A stretch of 64,000 nucleotides of DNA from Candidatus Thalassospirochaeta sargassi (GTDB taxonomy: Bacteria; Spirochaetota; Spirochaetia; UBA9216): contig JAQQAL010000011.1 of NCBI GenBank assembly GCA_028532855.1, forward strand, positions 62,001-126,000, given 5' to 3'. Each line of letters starts with the position of its first letter. Positions within the stretch are counted from its first letter, which is position 1. The position numbers were made by a program, and so were the translations under genes. The notes beneath the pieces were generated by a model. It was not told the origin of the DNA, made no database searches, and worked only from the letters and a program-made list of their open reading frames with translations. Below are positions 21,239 through 40,842 of the stretch, piece by piece.

Positions 21239-21294
21239 TTTTGCCCAGAACTGGACTCGAACCAGCACGTCCGTGAAGACACTAGACCCTGAAC
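21239..21294 (-). repeat. att-like direct repeat (tRNA-proximal copy)
   Basis: This is the part of tRNA-Leu repeated at 8659-8714: 56 identical bases from just past the anticodon loop to the 3' end. It marks the probable recombination site of the island. Confidence 0.85.
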
Positions 21295-21326
21295 CTAGCG
21301 TGTCTACCAATTTCACCACCTGGGCA
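21241..21326 (-). tRNA. tRNA-Leu (CAG)
   Basis: An 86-base tRNA with a 7-bp acceptor stem (TGCCCAG pairing with CTGGGCA) and discriminator A. The D-arm reads GGTGAAATTGGTAGACACG. The anticodon stem-loop is CTAGG-TTCAGGG-TCTAG with anticodon CAG at 21289-21291. A long class II variable arm follows (TGTCTTCACGGACGT), then T-arm GCTGGTTCGAGTCCAGT. CCA is not encoded. No intrinsic terminator follows it at this site; a good one follows the truncated copy at 8661. Confidence 0.95.
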
Positions 21327-34689: not shown

Positions 34690-36055
34690 CATTCTTGTTA
34701 TTGATGATGAGCCCGGAATCAGATCAGTTCTTAGAGATATCTTCGAAGATGAATCATACAATGTATTTGACGCAGGTGACGGCATCAGAGGACTTGAAAT
34801 GCTTGAATCCGAAATTATTCATCTAGTTGTTCTGGATGTATGGCTCCCGAATATCGGAGGGATTGACGTACTGAAGAAGATCAAGGAGGATTATCCTGAA
34901 ATCGAGGTAATTATAATTTCGGGTCATGCGAATATCGATCTGGCCGTAAAGGCTGTCAAACTGGGAGCCTTCGATTTTCTTGAAAAACCCCTGTCGCTGG
35001 ATAAGATTCTGACTCTCGCACGAAATGCAACCGCGATGAATGCGCTTAAAACTGAAAACAAGAAGCTTAAATCATCAGTGATTTCCGAAGAAACAATGAT
35101 AGGTGAAAGCGAACCCATCAGGCTTATTAAACAGACGATCAACCAGAGCGCAGGCTCCGACGCTAAGATCCTCATAACCGGAGACAACGGCACAGGTAAA
35201 GAGCTTGTGGCTCGCGATATACACAGGAAATCACAGCGCAATACTAAACCCTTTATTGAAGTAAACTGTGCCGCTATACCGGACACCCTCATTGAGAGTG
35301 AGCTGTTCGGGCATGAAAAAGGTGCCTTTACGGGAGCCCTCTCACAGCGCCGGGGTAAATTCGAAAGTGCTGACGGCGGGACTCTGTTTCTGGATGAGGT
35401 AGCCGATATGTCGCTTTCAGCCCAGGCTAAAGTTCTCAGGGTAATTCAGGAGATGCGGTTTGAAAGAGTTGGCAGCGAGGAGACCCGTAAGGTTGATGTG
35501 CGCATCATTGCCGCAACAAACAAGGATATACATCAGGAAATTGCCGACGGTAATTTCAGAGAAGATCTTTACTTCCGCCTGAATGTTGTCCCCATTCACG
35601 TGCCGCCGCTGTCCGACAGACGGGGTGACATCCCGCTGCTGATAGAATACTTTATTCAGGAAATGCATAAAACTGAGAATATTACAGCATCCGAGTTCAG
35701 TCCGGAAGCCATTGACATGCTGATTGACTACAGCTGGCCGGGAAACGTCAGAGAACTGAAAAATTTCATAGAGCGTGTTACAATTATGTCGGAGGAAGAT
35801 GTTATCAGTGTTGAAACTGCATCAAAATTCCTTGGTTCCAGTGAAGAAAAACAGGAAAAAATAATCAATCCGCTTATCGAAAAATTCAGTGATATGAAGC
35901 TTTCAGAAGCAAGAGATGAATTTGAACGAATGCTTTTACTTCAAAAACTTGAAGAAAACGAGTATAATATTACAAGGGCGGCCCAGAGTCTGGGAATATA
36001 CCCGAGCAATCTGCATGGTAAGATCAAGAAATTCGATATTGAGATAAAAAAATGA
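34682..36055 (+). CDS. ntrX: NtrX-like sigma-54 response regulator
   Basis: 457 residues. The receiver has VIDDEPGIRSVL with phospho-Asp in VVLDVWLPNIGG. The AAA+ domain has Walker A TGDNGTGKE (slightly unusual, with Asn and Thr), the GAFTGA loop and LFLDEVADM. A Fis-type helix-turn-helix closes the protein (EENEYNITRAAQSLGIYPSNLHGKI), where YPSNLH-K is typical of NtrX. The start is TTG at 34682. It probably controls envelope, nitrogen or redox genes with NtrY; targets are not visible here. Confidence 0.92.
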   Translation: MANILVIDDEPGIRSVLRDIFEDESYNVFDAGDGIRGLEMLESEIIHLVVLDVWLPNIGGIDVLKKIKEDYPEIEVIIISGHANIDLAVKAVKLGAFDFLEKPLSLDKILTLARNATAMNALKTENKKLKSSVISEETMIGESEPIRLIKQTINQSAGSDAKILITGDNGTGKELVARDIHRKSQRNTKPFIEVNCAAIPDTLIESELFGHEKGAFTGALSQRRGKFESADGGTLFLDEVADMSLSAQAKVLRVIQEMRFERVGSEETRKVDVRIIAATNKDIHQEIADGNFREDLYFRLNVVPIHVPPLSDRRGDIPLLIEYFIQEMHKTENITASEFSPEAIDMLIDYSWPGNVRELKNFIERVTIMSEEDVISVETASKFLGSSEEKQEKIINPLIEKFSDMKLSEARDEFERMLLLQKLEENEYNITRAAQSLGIYPSNLHGKIKKFDIEIKK

Positions 36056-36660
36056 AGGAACTGACTAAGCGCCAGGAAGAAACATTAGATTATATCAGGA
36101 GCTATATCGAACAGCATAAATATCCCCCGACTATCAGGGAGATGGCTGCTTCATTCAGTATTTCGGTAAAAGGCGCATATGATCATATCAAGGCTCTGGA
36201 AAAAAAAGGCCGGATCAAATGCGACGGTAACCGCTCCCGAACAATAGAAATCCTCGACCAGAAAACACCTGCCGAACCGGAAACTCTTGAGGTCCCGATT
36301 CTGGGCAAGGTTGCCGCAGGTAAACCGCTTTTTGCTGAAGAAAATTTCGAAGGAACCATCAATATGCCGGTCGCAAGACTGGGAAAAGGCACCTTTTTCG
36401 CGCTTCATGTCGCAGGCGACAGCATGCAGGACATTGGAATACTCGACGGCGATACGGCTATCTTTAAACAGCGTAATACTGCAGATAACGGCGACATTGT
36501 CGTGGCAATGATAAATGAAGAGGCTTACACCCTCAAACGGTTTTACCGTGAAAAAAACAGGATTAAACTGAAAGCTGAGAACCCGGTCTATCCTCCCATA
36601 TACACACAGAATGTGAAGGTTCTCGGCAAATTAAAATGCATCGTAAGGGACTATGACTGA
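36052..36660 (+). CDS. lexA: LexA repressor
   Basis: 202 residues, normal for LexA. The N-terminal winged helix reads LTKRQEETLDYIRSYIEQHK, PPTIREMAASFSISVKGAYDH. The cleavage dipeptide Ala-Gly is in GKVAAGKPLF. The catalytic Ser is in VAGDSMQDIGI and the Lys in EAYTLKRFYR. It represses SOS genes until RecA-stimulated self-cleavage. It overlaps ntrX by 4 bases and holA by 8, so SOS control is embedded in this regulatory operon. No operator was identified here. Confidence 0.95.
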   Translation: MKELTKRQEETLDYIRSYIEQHKYPPTIREMAASFSISVKGAYDHIKALEKKGRIKCDGNRSRTIEILDQKTPAEPETLEVPILGKVAAGKPLFAEENFEGTINMPVARLGKGTFFALHVAGDSMQDIGILDGDTAIFKQRNTADNGDIVVAMINEEAYTLKRFYREKNRIKLKAENPVYPPIYTQNVKVLGKLKCIVRDYD

Positions 36661-37633
36661 TACAGCCTGGCTTCTCTCCGGCCCTGAAGCAGGGGAACGG
36701 ACAAACTTTCTTAAACAACTTAGAAACCGACTCACCGACAGCTTCGGCGAAGAACCGGAACAGCACCGATTCTACCCATTTGAAAGCACCGTATCCGAGA
36801 TTATCTCTCTTATAAAAAACGGTTCGCTTTTCTCCGCCTGGAAACTGATTATTATTGGCCAGGCCGATCTGCTTAAAAAGGCCGAGATTGAAGAAATCAA
36901 GGCCTATCTTTCAAATCCATCTGAAGATGCGGTTCTTATCTTTCTGTCAGATGAGACCTCGTTGAAGAACGGTCTCGGAAAAATTGTTCCGAAACAGAAC
37001 CAGAAGATTTTCTGGGAAATGTTCGAAAACCAGAAGAAAGGCTGGCTTTCCGGATTTTTCCGCAATCGGCGTATTGAGATTGAACCCGATGCAATAGAGC
37101 TTCTGTTGACCCTTGTAGAGAACAATACAGCCGACATGAAAAAAGAATGTGAGAAACTCGCAATATTCTTCGGTGAAGGGGCATCAATTTCCAAAGGAGA
37201 GATTGAAAATTTCTTCTATCACGGAAAGGAAGAAAACGTCTTTTCCCTCTTCAACCGCATTGCCGCGGCTGATTTTGGCGGCTCTGTTGAAATACTTCAA
37301 AAGATAATGCTCGGCAATGAAACAAATACCGTGCAGCTACTTGGCGGCCTGATGTGGCAGCTGCGCAACCTGCAGGGAATAGCTGTTGAACTGAATAAGG
37401 GCGAGTCGTTTCAATCCGCTTGTTATAAAAACAACATCAGGGGAAAGAAGGCACAGGCGGTGTATTCGGAGGCGTTAAAACATTACAGCGAAAAAAATCT
37501 GCGCGATATAATTGCCCTGACAGCCGAATATGATATCAAGCTGCGAACAGCCAGGCAGGAGCAGCGCGAGATGACCGCACAGCTCTACCTTTATTCTCTG
37601 ATTATTCAGAAAGGATCGGCGAGAATTCTATAA
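36653..37633 (+). CDS. holA: DNA polymerase III subunit delta
   Basis: A 326-residue HolA-type clamp-loader subunit. It begins LLSGPEAGERTNFLKQL in place of a full Walker motif, as delta subunits do. It continues with LIIIGQADLLKKAEIEEIKAYL, the ENNTADMKKECEKLAIF segment and a C-terminal LLGGLMWQLRNLQGIA domain. It opens the sliding clamp during replication. It overlaps lexA, and its 3' end overlaps the convergent EEP-like gene by 32 bases. Confidence 0.9.
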   Translation: MTDTAWLLSGPEAGERTNFLKQLRNRLTDSFGEEPEQHRFYPFESTVSEIISLIKNGSLFSAWKLIIIGQADLLKKAEIEEIKAYLSNPSEDAVLIFLSDETSLKNGLGKIVPKQNQKIFWEMFENQKKGWLSGFFRNRRIEIEPDAIELLLTLVENNTADMKKECEKLAIFFGEGASISKGEIENFFYHGKEENVFSLFNRIAAADFGGSVEILQKIMLGNETNTVQLLGGLMWQLRNLQGIAVELNKGESFQSACYKNNIRGKKAQAVYSEALKHYSEKNLRDIIALTAEYDIKLRTARQEQREMTAQLYLYSLIIQKGSARIL

Positions 37634-38657
37634 CAGCCTTTACTCCATAGCGTGCCGACGGAAATACACCGTAGACCGGCTCATCCAGTACAATTTCAGC
37701 TGAGACAGGCTTCATTCCGCGGCCCCGCATCAGGATATAATCGCTTCTGTATTGCCCGGAGAGAAGCGCCCGGGCCTTCTGCAGCCCTCCTTCGGGTATC
37801 TTTTTAAAACTGCTGTTTCCCGCCATGTCTACGGTGTATCCGGGGCCCCGTCCCGATCTGGCATAGATATCAATAAATCCAGCATCAGTCAACAGATCAA
37901 GTTCGGCGCTTCCGGGCAGCGCGTTCAGACTCCCCATCAGAACAACAGGTGTCTCGCCGGCAACACTGTTAATAAACGATAGGGTTTCCGCTGCCTGTTC
38001 GAGCCTTGCAGCCGCTCCTTCTACCGCATTCTCTGTAAAACCGGTATATTCTTCGCCGCTGATCTCACCGTTCGAATAGGCGCTCAGCAGCGTTAGAAGA
38101 CTCTCTTTATCTGCGAAGAGCGACTCAGTCCAGACCACGGAAAACACATAAAAGGATACATCACCGGTTGAGACCAGACATCCGGCGGCCTGCACCCCGT
38201 CGCGCGCGAAGAGGGTTACGGCAGAGCCGGCGCTAAGCCCCTTCATCTGCATTCGTCCGGCAGGCTCGACTGTCAATCCCTCTGCAGTAAGAACCGCATC
38301 GCCTTCTTTTAAATTGGCCGGCAGGCTCACTGGTCCAATGCGTACACCGCTGCGTGAAACCCAGGCGTAGGATTTCATCCCCAGCTCGCCGGATACAGCA
38401 CCTGCGGCCGGGCCGGCGGGGTTTAGACCGTTCAATACAATTACATCCGCGGACGTATCCGCAAGGGAGGAAGTCAGAATTTCACGCCTGAATTCTCTGT
38501 CCCCGTCGGATTCATACTCATCACAGGAGATAATGCCCGAATAATCCATACCGGACCATGCATTGACCGTTACAAAGCTAAGCTCTTCCGCTGCGGCTGA
38601 TTCAATAATAAACACCGCCAGAACCAGGGTTATTAATCTGCTGATATTTCTTTTCAT
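37602..38657 (-). CDS. Secreted EEP-fold protein with degenerate catalytic motifs
   Basis: 351 residues with a signal peptide (ISRLITLVLAVFIIESAAAE). The mature part resembles an endonuclease/exonuclease/phosphatase domain: LSFVTVNAWSGMDY, a DVIVLNGLNP strand, VVLMGSLNALPGSAELDLL and YRSDYILMRG. The usual catalytic residues look replaced: Glu after LQ is absent (LNG), GDFN reads GSLN, and the terminal SDHxP reads SARYGVKA. It may be a non-catalytic binding protein of the envelope. It lies downstream of the RNA candidate at 38753. Confidence 0.6.
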   Translation of the reverse strand: MKRNISRLITLVLAVFIIESAAAEELSFVTVNAWSGMDYSGIISCDEYESDGDREFRREILTSSLADTSADVIVLNGLNPAGPAAGAVSGELGMKSYAWVSRSGVRIGPVSLPANLKEGDAVLTAEGLTVEPAGRMQMKGLSAGSAVTLFARDGVQAAGCLVSTGDVSFYVFSVVWTESLFADKESLLTLLSAYSNGEISGEEYTGFTENAVEGAAARLEQAAETLSFINSVAGETPVVLMGSLNALPGSAELDLLTDAGFIDIYARSGRGPGYTVDMAGNSSFKKIPEGGLQKARALLSGQYRSDYILMRGRGMKPVSAEIVLDEPVYGVFPSARYGVKAVIEFSPILSE

Positions 38658-38752: not shown

Positions 38753-38783
38753 AAAAAAAAAAGCCGGACTGATTACCGGCTTT
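38753..38783 (-). terminator. Intrinsic terminator of the RNA candidate
   Basis: Minus-strand arms AAAGCCGG and CCGGCTTT (38776-38783 and 38760-38767) with an eight-base loop, followed by an unbroken T-run at 38753-38760. Confidence 0.9.
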
Positions 38784-38974
38784 AGAAAATTCAGTGACAC
38801 CCTAAGTGGCATCTGAATTCTCACTAATTTTAAGAGTTAAACAACTCTTCATTAAAATCAATGTCTGTTTGCCGGCTCAGCACCGGCGATCCTTTTCAGG
38901 TGGAGTCATCTTCTCCTCCTTAATTCAAGTTTAGAAGCCGTTGGCTCTCGGCCAAGGCTTGTCTTACCTCGTCT
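38753..38974 (-). ncRNA. Candidate structured RNA of about 220 nt with own promoter and terminator
   Basis: The uvrC/EEP gap (394 bases) has a complete transcription unit on the minus strand. The RNA would fold into successive hairpins: AAGCC-TTGGC/GCCAA-C-GGCTT near its 5' end, AGGAGGAG/CTCCACCT, GCCGG/CCGGC, AAGAGTT/AACTCTT and a long AATTCAG...CTGAATT stem, then the terminator. It contains a 10-codon frame (MTPPEKDRRC) behind AAGGAGGAGAAG, whose ribosome site is itself inside a hairpin. I did not recognise a known RNA family. Existence of the transcript is inference. Confidence 0.6.
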
Positions 38975-38980
38975 ATGTTA

Positions 38981-39009
38981 AAGTTAGTACAGTTTCACTC
39001 AGAAGTCAA
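38981..39009 (-). promoter_or_regulatory. Sigma-70 promoter of the RNA candidate
   Basis: On the minus strand TTGACT (39004-39009) and TAACTT (38981-38986) are separated by 17 bases. Start expected near 38974, inside the gap after uvrC. Confidence 0.7.
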
Positions 39010-39051: not shown

Positions 39052-40842
39052 TCAGCTCTTTATTTTATGTATTTCTTCAAGCAGGGCTTTAATTGTTTCA
39101 GACCGGAGACCGGCAGTCTCTTTCAGCTTTTCTTCAGACTGTTTCCCGATTTCTTCCAGCGAACCGAAAGCCTGAATCAGTTTTCTGCTCTTTGAGGGAC
39201 CAATCCCCGGTATACCTTCAAGCACCGAAAACCGGCTGTCTTTCTGCCGCATTTTTTTATTGAAACCAGTCGCAAACCTGTGTGTTTCGTCACGAACATA
39301 CTGAAGCACCCTGAGAGCTGGATCCCCCTCAGGCAGATTGATGGGTTTATTTCTGCCGTTGAGATAAATCTCCTCATTACGTTTAGCGAGACCGGCAAGG
39401 GGAATATACTCAAGACCAAGGGCAGTCAGGACGCCACGGGCGGCACTCACCTGACCGGCACCCCCGTCTATGAGGATCAGATCGGGCATCGTCAAATTTT
39501 CATTCAGCAAACGGCTGTACCGCCTTGAGACAGCCTCCCTCACTGCTGCAAAATCGTCTATACGACCGTCGAGGGTCTTTAGATGGAAATGCCGATAATT
39601 ATTCCTGTCCGGAACGCCGTCCTTGAATGACACCAGAGATGCTGCAGGATATTTACCTGAAAGCTGGGCAATATCAAAACCCTCAATCCGTCTCGGAATC
39701 CTGGCAAGCCCAAGAACATCTTTTAATGCCTCAAGTCCTTCTTCATTCTTAACATGACGCTTTCGTTTTGTAATATCCTGCCAGGCATTCTCTTCCGCCA
39801 TTTTCAAAATCGAGAGGTTCTGCCCTTTTTCCGGAAAAATCAACTGCGGCTGTGCTTTTTTCTCTTTCCGGAAAAAATTTTTCAGAAGCTTGAGAGAGAT
39901 AAGCCTGGAAAAGTAGATCTCTCCCGGAACATCATCCAGCTCGGAATAATATTGAATTATAAACTGCTCAAGAGCTTCTTCGTCGGTAGAAACAAATTCA
40001 GTGCGATAAAGATCGCGGCCGATAAGTCTTCCTTCACGCATCTGAAATACCGCAAAGGTGTAGAGATTCTCAAAAGAGGAAAATGAGATATAATCCCTCT
40101 GCTGGTCATTAAAATCAATTATCTTCTGGTTGAATTCCTCAATAAGACCCTCAGCTGCCGCATATGCATCCCTGAATTCGGCCGCTCTTTCATATTCAAG
40201 GGCAGAAGAAGCCTCCGTCATACGGTCTTTCAGCCATTTCAGCAGGCTTTCATTATCTCCCGAAAGCAGGTCTTCAACCTGTTCAACAATTTTTCCGTAA
40301 TCTTCTACCGAAATCATACCCACACAGGGGGCTGTACAGCGCCCTATATGATAATAAAGACAGGGATTATCCCTTTTCTTAAGCGGCCCCCGGCATTTTC
40401 TAAGTTTAAAAATTTTATCAATAGTCTCAATATAAATACTCAAAAGGCCTGCAGAAGGAAATGGTCCGAAGTATTTTGAACCGTCGCGGATAATCCTCCG
40501 GGTCTTGAACACACGGGGATAATCTTCCTTTGTGATTCTTACAACCGGATAGCTTTTTCCGTCTTTCAATCTGATATTATATCTAGGAGTCCATTTCTTG
40601 ATTAAGATATTCTCAAGCAGCAGGGCTTCATACTCTGATTCAGTAATTATAGTTTCGATATCATCGATTTTTGATACAAGAACAGTAGTTTTCGGATCAC
40701 GATTCTTTAAAAAATACGAGCTGACTCTTTTTTTCAGGTTTACCGCTTTGCCGACATAAATAATCTTCCCGGTTTTATCCTTCATCAGATAAACACCGGA
40801 TGATTCAGGAAATTCCGACACTGCAGCTTTTAATCTTTCCAT
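39052..40842 (-). CDS. uvrC: Excinuclease ABC subunit C
   Basis: 596 residues, normal UvrC length. An N-terminal GIY-YIG nuclease (SGVYLMKDKTGKIIYVGKAVNLKKR) makes the 3' incision. A Cys-containing segment (CRGPLKKRDNPCLYYHIGRCTAPCVG) and a UVR motif (ASSALEYERAAEFRDAY) follow. The RNase H-like nuclease has FDIAQLSG and LILIDGGAGQ. C-terminal helix-hairpin-helix repeats end the protein (LEGIPGIGPSKSRKLIQAFG). It acts in nucleotide excision repair with UvrAB, and is probably LexA-linked in many bacteria. Confidence 0.97.
   Translation of the reverse strand: MERLKAAVSEFPESSGVYLMKDKTGKIIYVGKAVNLKKRVSSYFLKNRDPKTTVLVSKIDDIETIITESEYEALLLENILIKKWTPRYNIRLKDGKSYPVVRITKEDYPRVFKTRRIIRDGSKYFGPFPSAGLLSIYIETIDKIFKLRKCRGPLKKRDNPCLYYHIGRCTAPCVGMISVEDYGKIVEQVEDLLSGDNESLLKWLKDRMTEASSALEYERAAEFRDAYAAAEGLIEEFNQKIIDFNDQQRDYISFSSFENLYTFAVFQMREGRLIGRDLYRTEFVSTDEEALEQFIIQYYSELDDVPGEIYFSRLISLKLLKNFFRKEKKAQPQLIFPEKGQNLSILKMAEENAWQDITKRKRHVKNEEGLEALKDVLGLARIPRRIEGFDIAQLSGKYPAASLVSFKDGVPDRNNYRHFHLKTLDGRIDDFAAVREAVSRRYSRLLNENLTMPDLILIDGGAGQVSAARGVLTALGLEYIPLAGLAKRNEEIYLNGRNKPINLPEGDPALRVLQYVRDETHRFATGFNKKMRQKDSRFSVLEGIPGIGPSKSRKLIQAFGSLEEIGKQSEEKLKETAGLRSETIKALLEEIHKIKS

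Follow-up and report, generated by a model that had tools for sequence, protein, structure and literature searches.

What kind of RNA, if any, is made from the gap between uvrC and an Exo_endo_phos gene in Candidatus Thalassospirochaeta sargassi, and what might the very short reading frame inside it be doing there? Within the window (the whole 64,000-nucleotide stretch of DNA that was analysed), minus-strand positions 38753-39009 of this gap hold a promoter, six hairpins, a 10-codon frame and a terminator. These features and the two flanking genes are arranged as follows.

39052-40842, minus strand: uvrC, which ends at 39052, upstream of the RNA
38981..39009, minus strand: promoter TTGACT-17-TAACTT (by direct reading, TTGACT at 39009-39004, a 17-base spacer and TAACTT at 38986-38981); a similar 17-base-spaced site is found in most relatives
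38753..38974, minus strand: RNA of about 222 nt (fold z -6.1 and homologues; 5' end placed from the -10 box)
38930..38974, minus strand: 5' hairpin region P1 (consensus fold of four congeners; variable among relatives)
38913..38920, minus strand: Shine-Dalgarno sequence AGGAGGAG, the 5' arm of hairpin P2 (sequence, fold, covariation and accessibility)
38877..38909, minus strand: mini-ORF MTPPEKDRRC plus stop, ATG...TGA (in-frame start and Pro-Pro in 38/38 loci)
38898..38905, minus strand: CTCCACCT, the 3' arm of P2, which includes the Pro-Pro codons at 38903-38898
38871..38887, minus strand: hairpin P3, GCCGG..CCGGC, with the stop codon inside (covariation and four-congener consensus)
38832..38849, minus strand: hairpin P4 (minimum free energy (MFE) fold; absent from the four-congener consensus)
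38785..38824, minus strand: GUGAG hairpin P5, part of the 3' module (3'-module comparisons and consensus fold)
38753..38783, minus strand: intrinsic terminator P6 with ten T (stem 38783-38760, T-run 38762-38753; sequence and terminator scan)
37602-38657, minus strand: Exo_endo_phos (EEP-like) gene, named by Pfam, the next gene downstream, with its start at 38657

Reading the minus strand directly bore out the original prediction that promoter, hairpins and terminator share one strand, and the whole RNA folded at -80.9 kcal/mol against -54.1 kcal/mol in shuffles (sd 4.4; z -6.1), a value equalled by none of 200 shuffles. The ribosome site of the 10-codon frame proved to be sequestered, as had also been claimed: CTCCACCT pairs with AGGAGGAG except for one A-A mismatch. 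Transcription would start at about 38974. The 3' hairpin was recovered by a terminator scan of the window. A generic promoter scan of the window missed TTGACT-17-TAACTT, which taken alone is unremarkable (8/12 consensus letters, a score reached by 56/100 shuffles). Across 35 relatives the best upstream promoter averaged 9.3/12, compared with 7.5 in shuffles, and scores of at least 10/12 were found in 16 of the 35 and in 3% of shuffles. As judged from sequence, the RNA would be an independent transcript with its own promoter and terminator.

The RNA had been described as an orphan, which our searches did not bear out: we collected homologues at 38 loci, one in each of 38 genomes, and these genomes span 14 families of a single class, Spirochaetia. 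A nucleotide search of 60 related genomes recovered the whole RNA in congeners and the 3' end alone further out. With R1, a covariance model built on the 66-nt mini-ORF region, 70 places in 55 of 138 genomes matched at E <= 0.05, and 36 of these places were judged real, namely the best 30, kept without selection, and six weaker ones that were inspected. Twenty of the lower 40 places were inspected, with five kept (L223, L224, L225, L230, L239) and 15 rejected from their sequences as chance matches or coding DNA; L011 in genome G019, also retained among the weaker places, had already been found by earlier inspection of the nucleotide matches. A model of the 3' module made without the mini-ORF (R2) placed most of its best matches at R1 loci and supplied one extra locus (L272). 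One more (L283, in a family f24 genome) came from a refined model (R3) run over 392 genomes of the phylum, most of which had no match; nothing convincing lay outside the class among the R3 matches inspected, and 12 further lower-scoring ones were all rejected on inspection. In a wider contig scan, in which 80 pattern-selected loci were scored with R1, two of the matches listed exceeded 30 bits (L147 and L122). Both are spirochaetal (their records are a Spirochaetia MAG and a Spirochaetales MAG) and coincide in score and coordinates with the place of L088 and with L098. Five of the 11 other scored loci (L146, L168, L115, L145, L126) were inspected and had no matching layout, and the terminator pattern, run over 392 genomes, was too loose beyond near relatives. 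Relatives repeat the layout of promoter, GG-rich site, tiny M-(x)-Pro-Pro frame, GCCGG hairpin, more hairpins and terminator. The RNA appears to be a member of an undescribed Spirochaetia RNA family, and comparison supports both the family and its frame well.

The consensus fold of four congeners contains five local helices (5' stem, P2, P3, P5 and terminator), and the full-length fold had z < -2 in 29 of 32 loci, the values for L089, L098, L225 and L239 being approximate because the folded stretch overran the likely terminator. P1 is nearly absent where the promoter directly precedes the ribosome site, with the promoter-to-Shine-Dalgarno distance ranging from 8 to 74 nt. Compensatory base changes in relatives, originally proposed as a check, are present in P2 and P3: their covariation score was reached by only 2/500 shuffles and their nine pairs with two-sided changes by 1/500, and the true register was 77.5% paired as against at most 49% in slid registers. 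Weaker statistics were the percentage paired, reached by 17/500 shuffles, and the number of pair types, reached by 157/500. P3 had 94% of its cells paired and two-sided changes at three of five pairs. The inner pairs of P2, set by the two motifs, hardly vary and so are little informative; its outer pairs show two-sided changes in several lineages, and the outermost cannot form in roughly half of the sequences. The Shine-Dalgarno sequence had a median unpaired probability of 0.21, a modest difference from the 0.33 of 24 ordinary genes whose site is of the same type (p 0.005), and since GGNGG and CCNCC are naturally complementary, the masking may simply follow from Pro-Pro, or Pro-Pro from the masking.

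The 10-codon frame, mentioned only in passing in the original prediction, turned out to be the most conserved feature of the RNA. Counting from 2 nt past the ribosome site onward, the earliest ATG, GTG or TTG shares its frame with CCR-CCN (Pro-Pro) in 38/38 loci, a count that overstates the number of events because the sequences are related and not independent; all of the best 30 R1 places, taken unselected, show this in-frame start and Pro-Pro. The start codon lies 2-8 nt after the ribosome site, and Pro-Pro follows the start at a distance of 1, 2, 3, 4 or 6 codons, which implies at least four length changes, all of them multiples of three. A GCCGG-type hairpin then begins 10 nt past Pro-Pro (37 of 38 loci; 8 nt in one). 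The stop codon falls inside P3 in 25 loci, beginning 3-12 nt after the start of the hairpin. In the remaining 13 loci the frame continues past P3 with Pro-Pro still in phase, so that this phase is not merely imposed by the stop. Comparison of the loci shows the reading frame to be under selection and predicts that it is translated.

The proline codons themselves are used unevenly. The first is CCA (25 loci) or CCG (13 loci) and in no locus CCC or CCT, which together make up 313 of 638 proline codons in the long ORFs of the window; the second takes all four synonyms (CCT 25, CCG 6, CCA 4, CCC 3). PMC8129111 describes CCC/U-C as a cause of frameshifting and CCA as a means of setting pausing strength. 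Avoidance of frameshift-prone CCC/U-C together with CCA-set pausing would fit the bias at the first codon, as would adjustment of how well the codons pair with the Shine-Dalgarno sequence.

We favour a reading in which this RNA of about 220 nt is free-standing and carries a self-masking Pro-Pro mini-ORF, occupancy of which by ribosomes gates a trans-acting RNA; our confidence in it is evenly balanced. The molecule would have two parts, a translated 5' mini-ORF of about 10 codons and a 3' GUGAG hairpin with terminator, the Shine-Dalgarno sequence pairing with the frame's own two proline codons and the stop usually lying in the next hairpin. An entering ribosome would open the masking hairpin P2, pause at the early Pro-Pro and stop within the second hairpin, P3, and its occupancy would switch the fold, the lifetime or the exposed pairing surface of the trans-acting RNA. 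The act of translation would then count for more than the peptide. We infer the gating, the targets and the expression of the RNA. It is possible, though doubtful, that the RNA reports diproline translation in trans, with the Pro-Pro pause, whose length would depend on EF-P activity or the supply of prolyl-tRNA, fixing the time for which P2 is held open and so switching between an active RNA and an inactive or degraded one; no downstream gene would be needed.

The 3' module also occurs in shorter form. In G041, G413, G058 and G442 it stands without a mini-ORF and with promoter-like sequence just upstream (L253 in G041 at about 1490-1590; L268, L269 and L271 near 1500), and consists of a GUGAG-type hairpin and a CUAAAGCCGG terminator. 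L253 is convincing (R2, 62 bits), and L268, L269 and L271 are tentative assignments that lean on the terminator. If these are right, the 3' module would form a core of its own, with control added by the mini-ORF; the four short RNAs appear without the ORF, which suggests that the ORF is not indispensable to the role of the 3' part.

Could the micropeptide itself be the active product of a dual-function RNA, whether or not the RNA also base-pairs? The in-frame start and Pro-Pro at 38/38 loci, together with the synonymous variation of the second proline codon, would be expected of such a product, and in many of the peptides [GCSR]-Arg stands at or close to the C-terminus. However, the 38 loci encode 34 distinct peptides of 9-33 residues in which Pro-Pro is the sole constant. 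Beyond it, Arg alone recurs, and this residue derives from the CGG of the GCCGG hairpin and is lost in L005 and L011, whose hairpin differs. The four short relatives, moreover, appear to lack the ORF, and we consider an active micropeptide unlikely. The pattern is an unusual one, with a frame clearly under selection and a peptide almost unconserved except for Pro-Pro, and it suggests selection for translation itself.

The conserved proline codons could alternatively be read as RNA, in which case a non-coding sRNA would target the Shine-Dalgarno sequences of mRNAs through CCRCCU and the ORF would be incidental. CCRCC is kept in 38/38 loci and adjoins a hairpin, and the preferred CCA CCT are not the favoured proline codons of the window, both of which agree with this idea. 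An incidental frame, in contrast, should not survive five different distances from start to CC, and a well-spaced Shine-Dalgarno sequence (2-8 nt before the start) would be unneeded, which makes targeting of this kind improbable.

The neighbouring genes vary among the families. The upstream gene is uvrC in f1 (5/6), f2, f23 and f25 (assigned with Pfam or on inspection), and elsewhere Hsp33 (G006, divergent), DUF2779 (f14), a transport permease (f33), a TPR protein (f8) or an arginyl-tRNA-protein transferase (f11). Downstream genes differ by family (EEP-type, holA, ABC transporter, transport permease, gyrase-B type, dehydrogenase) and are often convergent, as with holA, the ABC transporter and the transport permease. 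Because the flanking genes differ and the downstream ones are often convergent, the RNA would be neither the leader of the next gene nor linked to DNA repair. Comparison thus shows the predicted RNA to be a free-standing unit with no fixed neighbour, and the original suggestion of a small regulatory RNA fits this conserved transcription unit, which occurs in differing gene neighbourhoods. The DNA-damage connection once raised through uvrC found no support and was rejected: the synteny is real in f1, f2, f23 and f25 and absent in the other families with a named upstream gene. In G006 (L006) the RNA adjoins holA and a lexA-like gene, and Hsp33 replaces uvrC. Within the window, the span 36052-38657 carries lexA-like (by eye) and holA-like genes beyond the EEP-like gene.

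It is very unlikely that the RNA serves the EEP-like gene downstream as its leader or attenuator. In the window, in L002-L005 and in L007 the RNA and the gene after it run in the same direction, Pfam names that gene Exo_endo_phos in both cases tested (the window and L007), and the arms of P3 and P6 are both GCCGG-like and could pair, all of which would suit a leader. In other families, however, what follows is a convergent or unrelated gene (holA in L006 and L088, an ABC transporter in L091, a transport permease in L101, a gyrase-B type gene in L096, a dehydrogenase in L087), and across the families with named neighbours we found no conserved codirectional downstream gene of the kind that an attenuator requires. 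An antiterminator exchange between P3 and P6, suggested by the MFE fold, was rejected, being without covariation and absent from the consensus fold. By eye, the two hairpins change independently: f8 combines a GCCAGC terminator with an unchanged P3, and L005 a changed P3 with an unchanged P6, so a covarying alternative pairing that would undo the terminator was not found. The leader-type sensor of the original prediction is accordingly set aside as a leader of the EEP-like gene and survives in altered form, as a mini-ORF in which translation would be coupled to folding.

That no known family would be recognised was confirmed against Rfam 15, the scan first proposed for this RNA. The window contained a single match, a tRNA gene elsewhere (21242-21325, minus strand), and nothing at the RNA; a 361-base stretch searched with permissive filters gave nine matches (E 0.16-8.7), none of which came close to the gathering score of its family; and 20 of the loci gave two tRNAs only, both outside the RNA. 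A divergent 6S, SRP RNA or tmRNA has next to no chance of being the explanation: essentially one convincing locus per genome, an own promoter and strong structure would be in keeping with it, but all three RNAs lie elsewhere in the same genome above cut-offs, their covariance models (RF00013, RF00169, RF00023) have no match at the locus, and neither the window RNA nor the 20 loci match Rfam. The SRP RNA gene of this genome is at G000:C11:169502-169600 and its 6S RNA gene at G000:C16:40624-40802. We found no prior description of the RNA in the open-licence PubMed Central literature, and one elsewhere is possible. The family appears to be new to Rfam 15 and to the open-licence literature searched, would add an undescribed RNA family to a class with little sRNA work found in that literature, and by its sequence features resembles dual-function sRNAs and proline-paused leader ORFs, from which it differs in having no fixed gene in cis and hardly any conservation of the peptide.

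Among the systems with which it can be compared, SgrS and SR1 encode a defined peptide, rnTrpL lies before its operon, and mgtL works in cis on mgtA. With the dual-function sRNAs SgrS, SR1 and VcdRP our RNA would share a free-standing structured transcript that has a promoter, a terminator and a small translated frame. Of the three traits expected of such sRNAs, two are seen here, a promoter and terminator of its own by sequence and a conserved, putatively translated frame by comparison (38/38 in frame); the third would be regulation of other mRNAs through base pairing. The spirochaete frame differs from theirs in having about 10 codons (VcdP, the peptide of VcdRP, is given as 29 aa in PMC8672173), in masking its own ribosome site and in keeping only Pro-Pro. 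Like rnTrpL/peTrpL of Sinorhizobium meliloti, whose products act in trans according to PMC7298713, it combines a short leader-peptide-like frame with a terminator; unlike rnTrpL, it has neither a fixed downstream gene nor a covarying antiterminator. With mgtL, the EF-P-responsive proline-rich leader ORF treated in PMC6460261, it shares early prolines in a very short ORF that would couple ribosome progress to the RNA. In contrast to mgtL, the spirochaete RNA has no conserved downstream target gene, and it may offer a compact system for asking whether ribosome pausing can control an RNA in trans.
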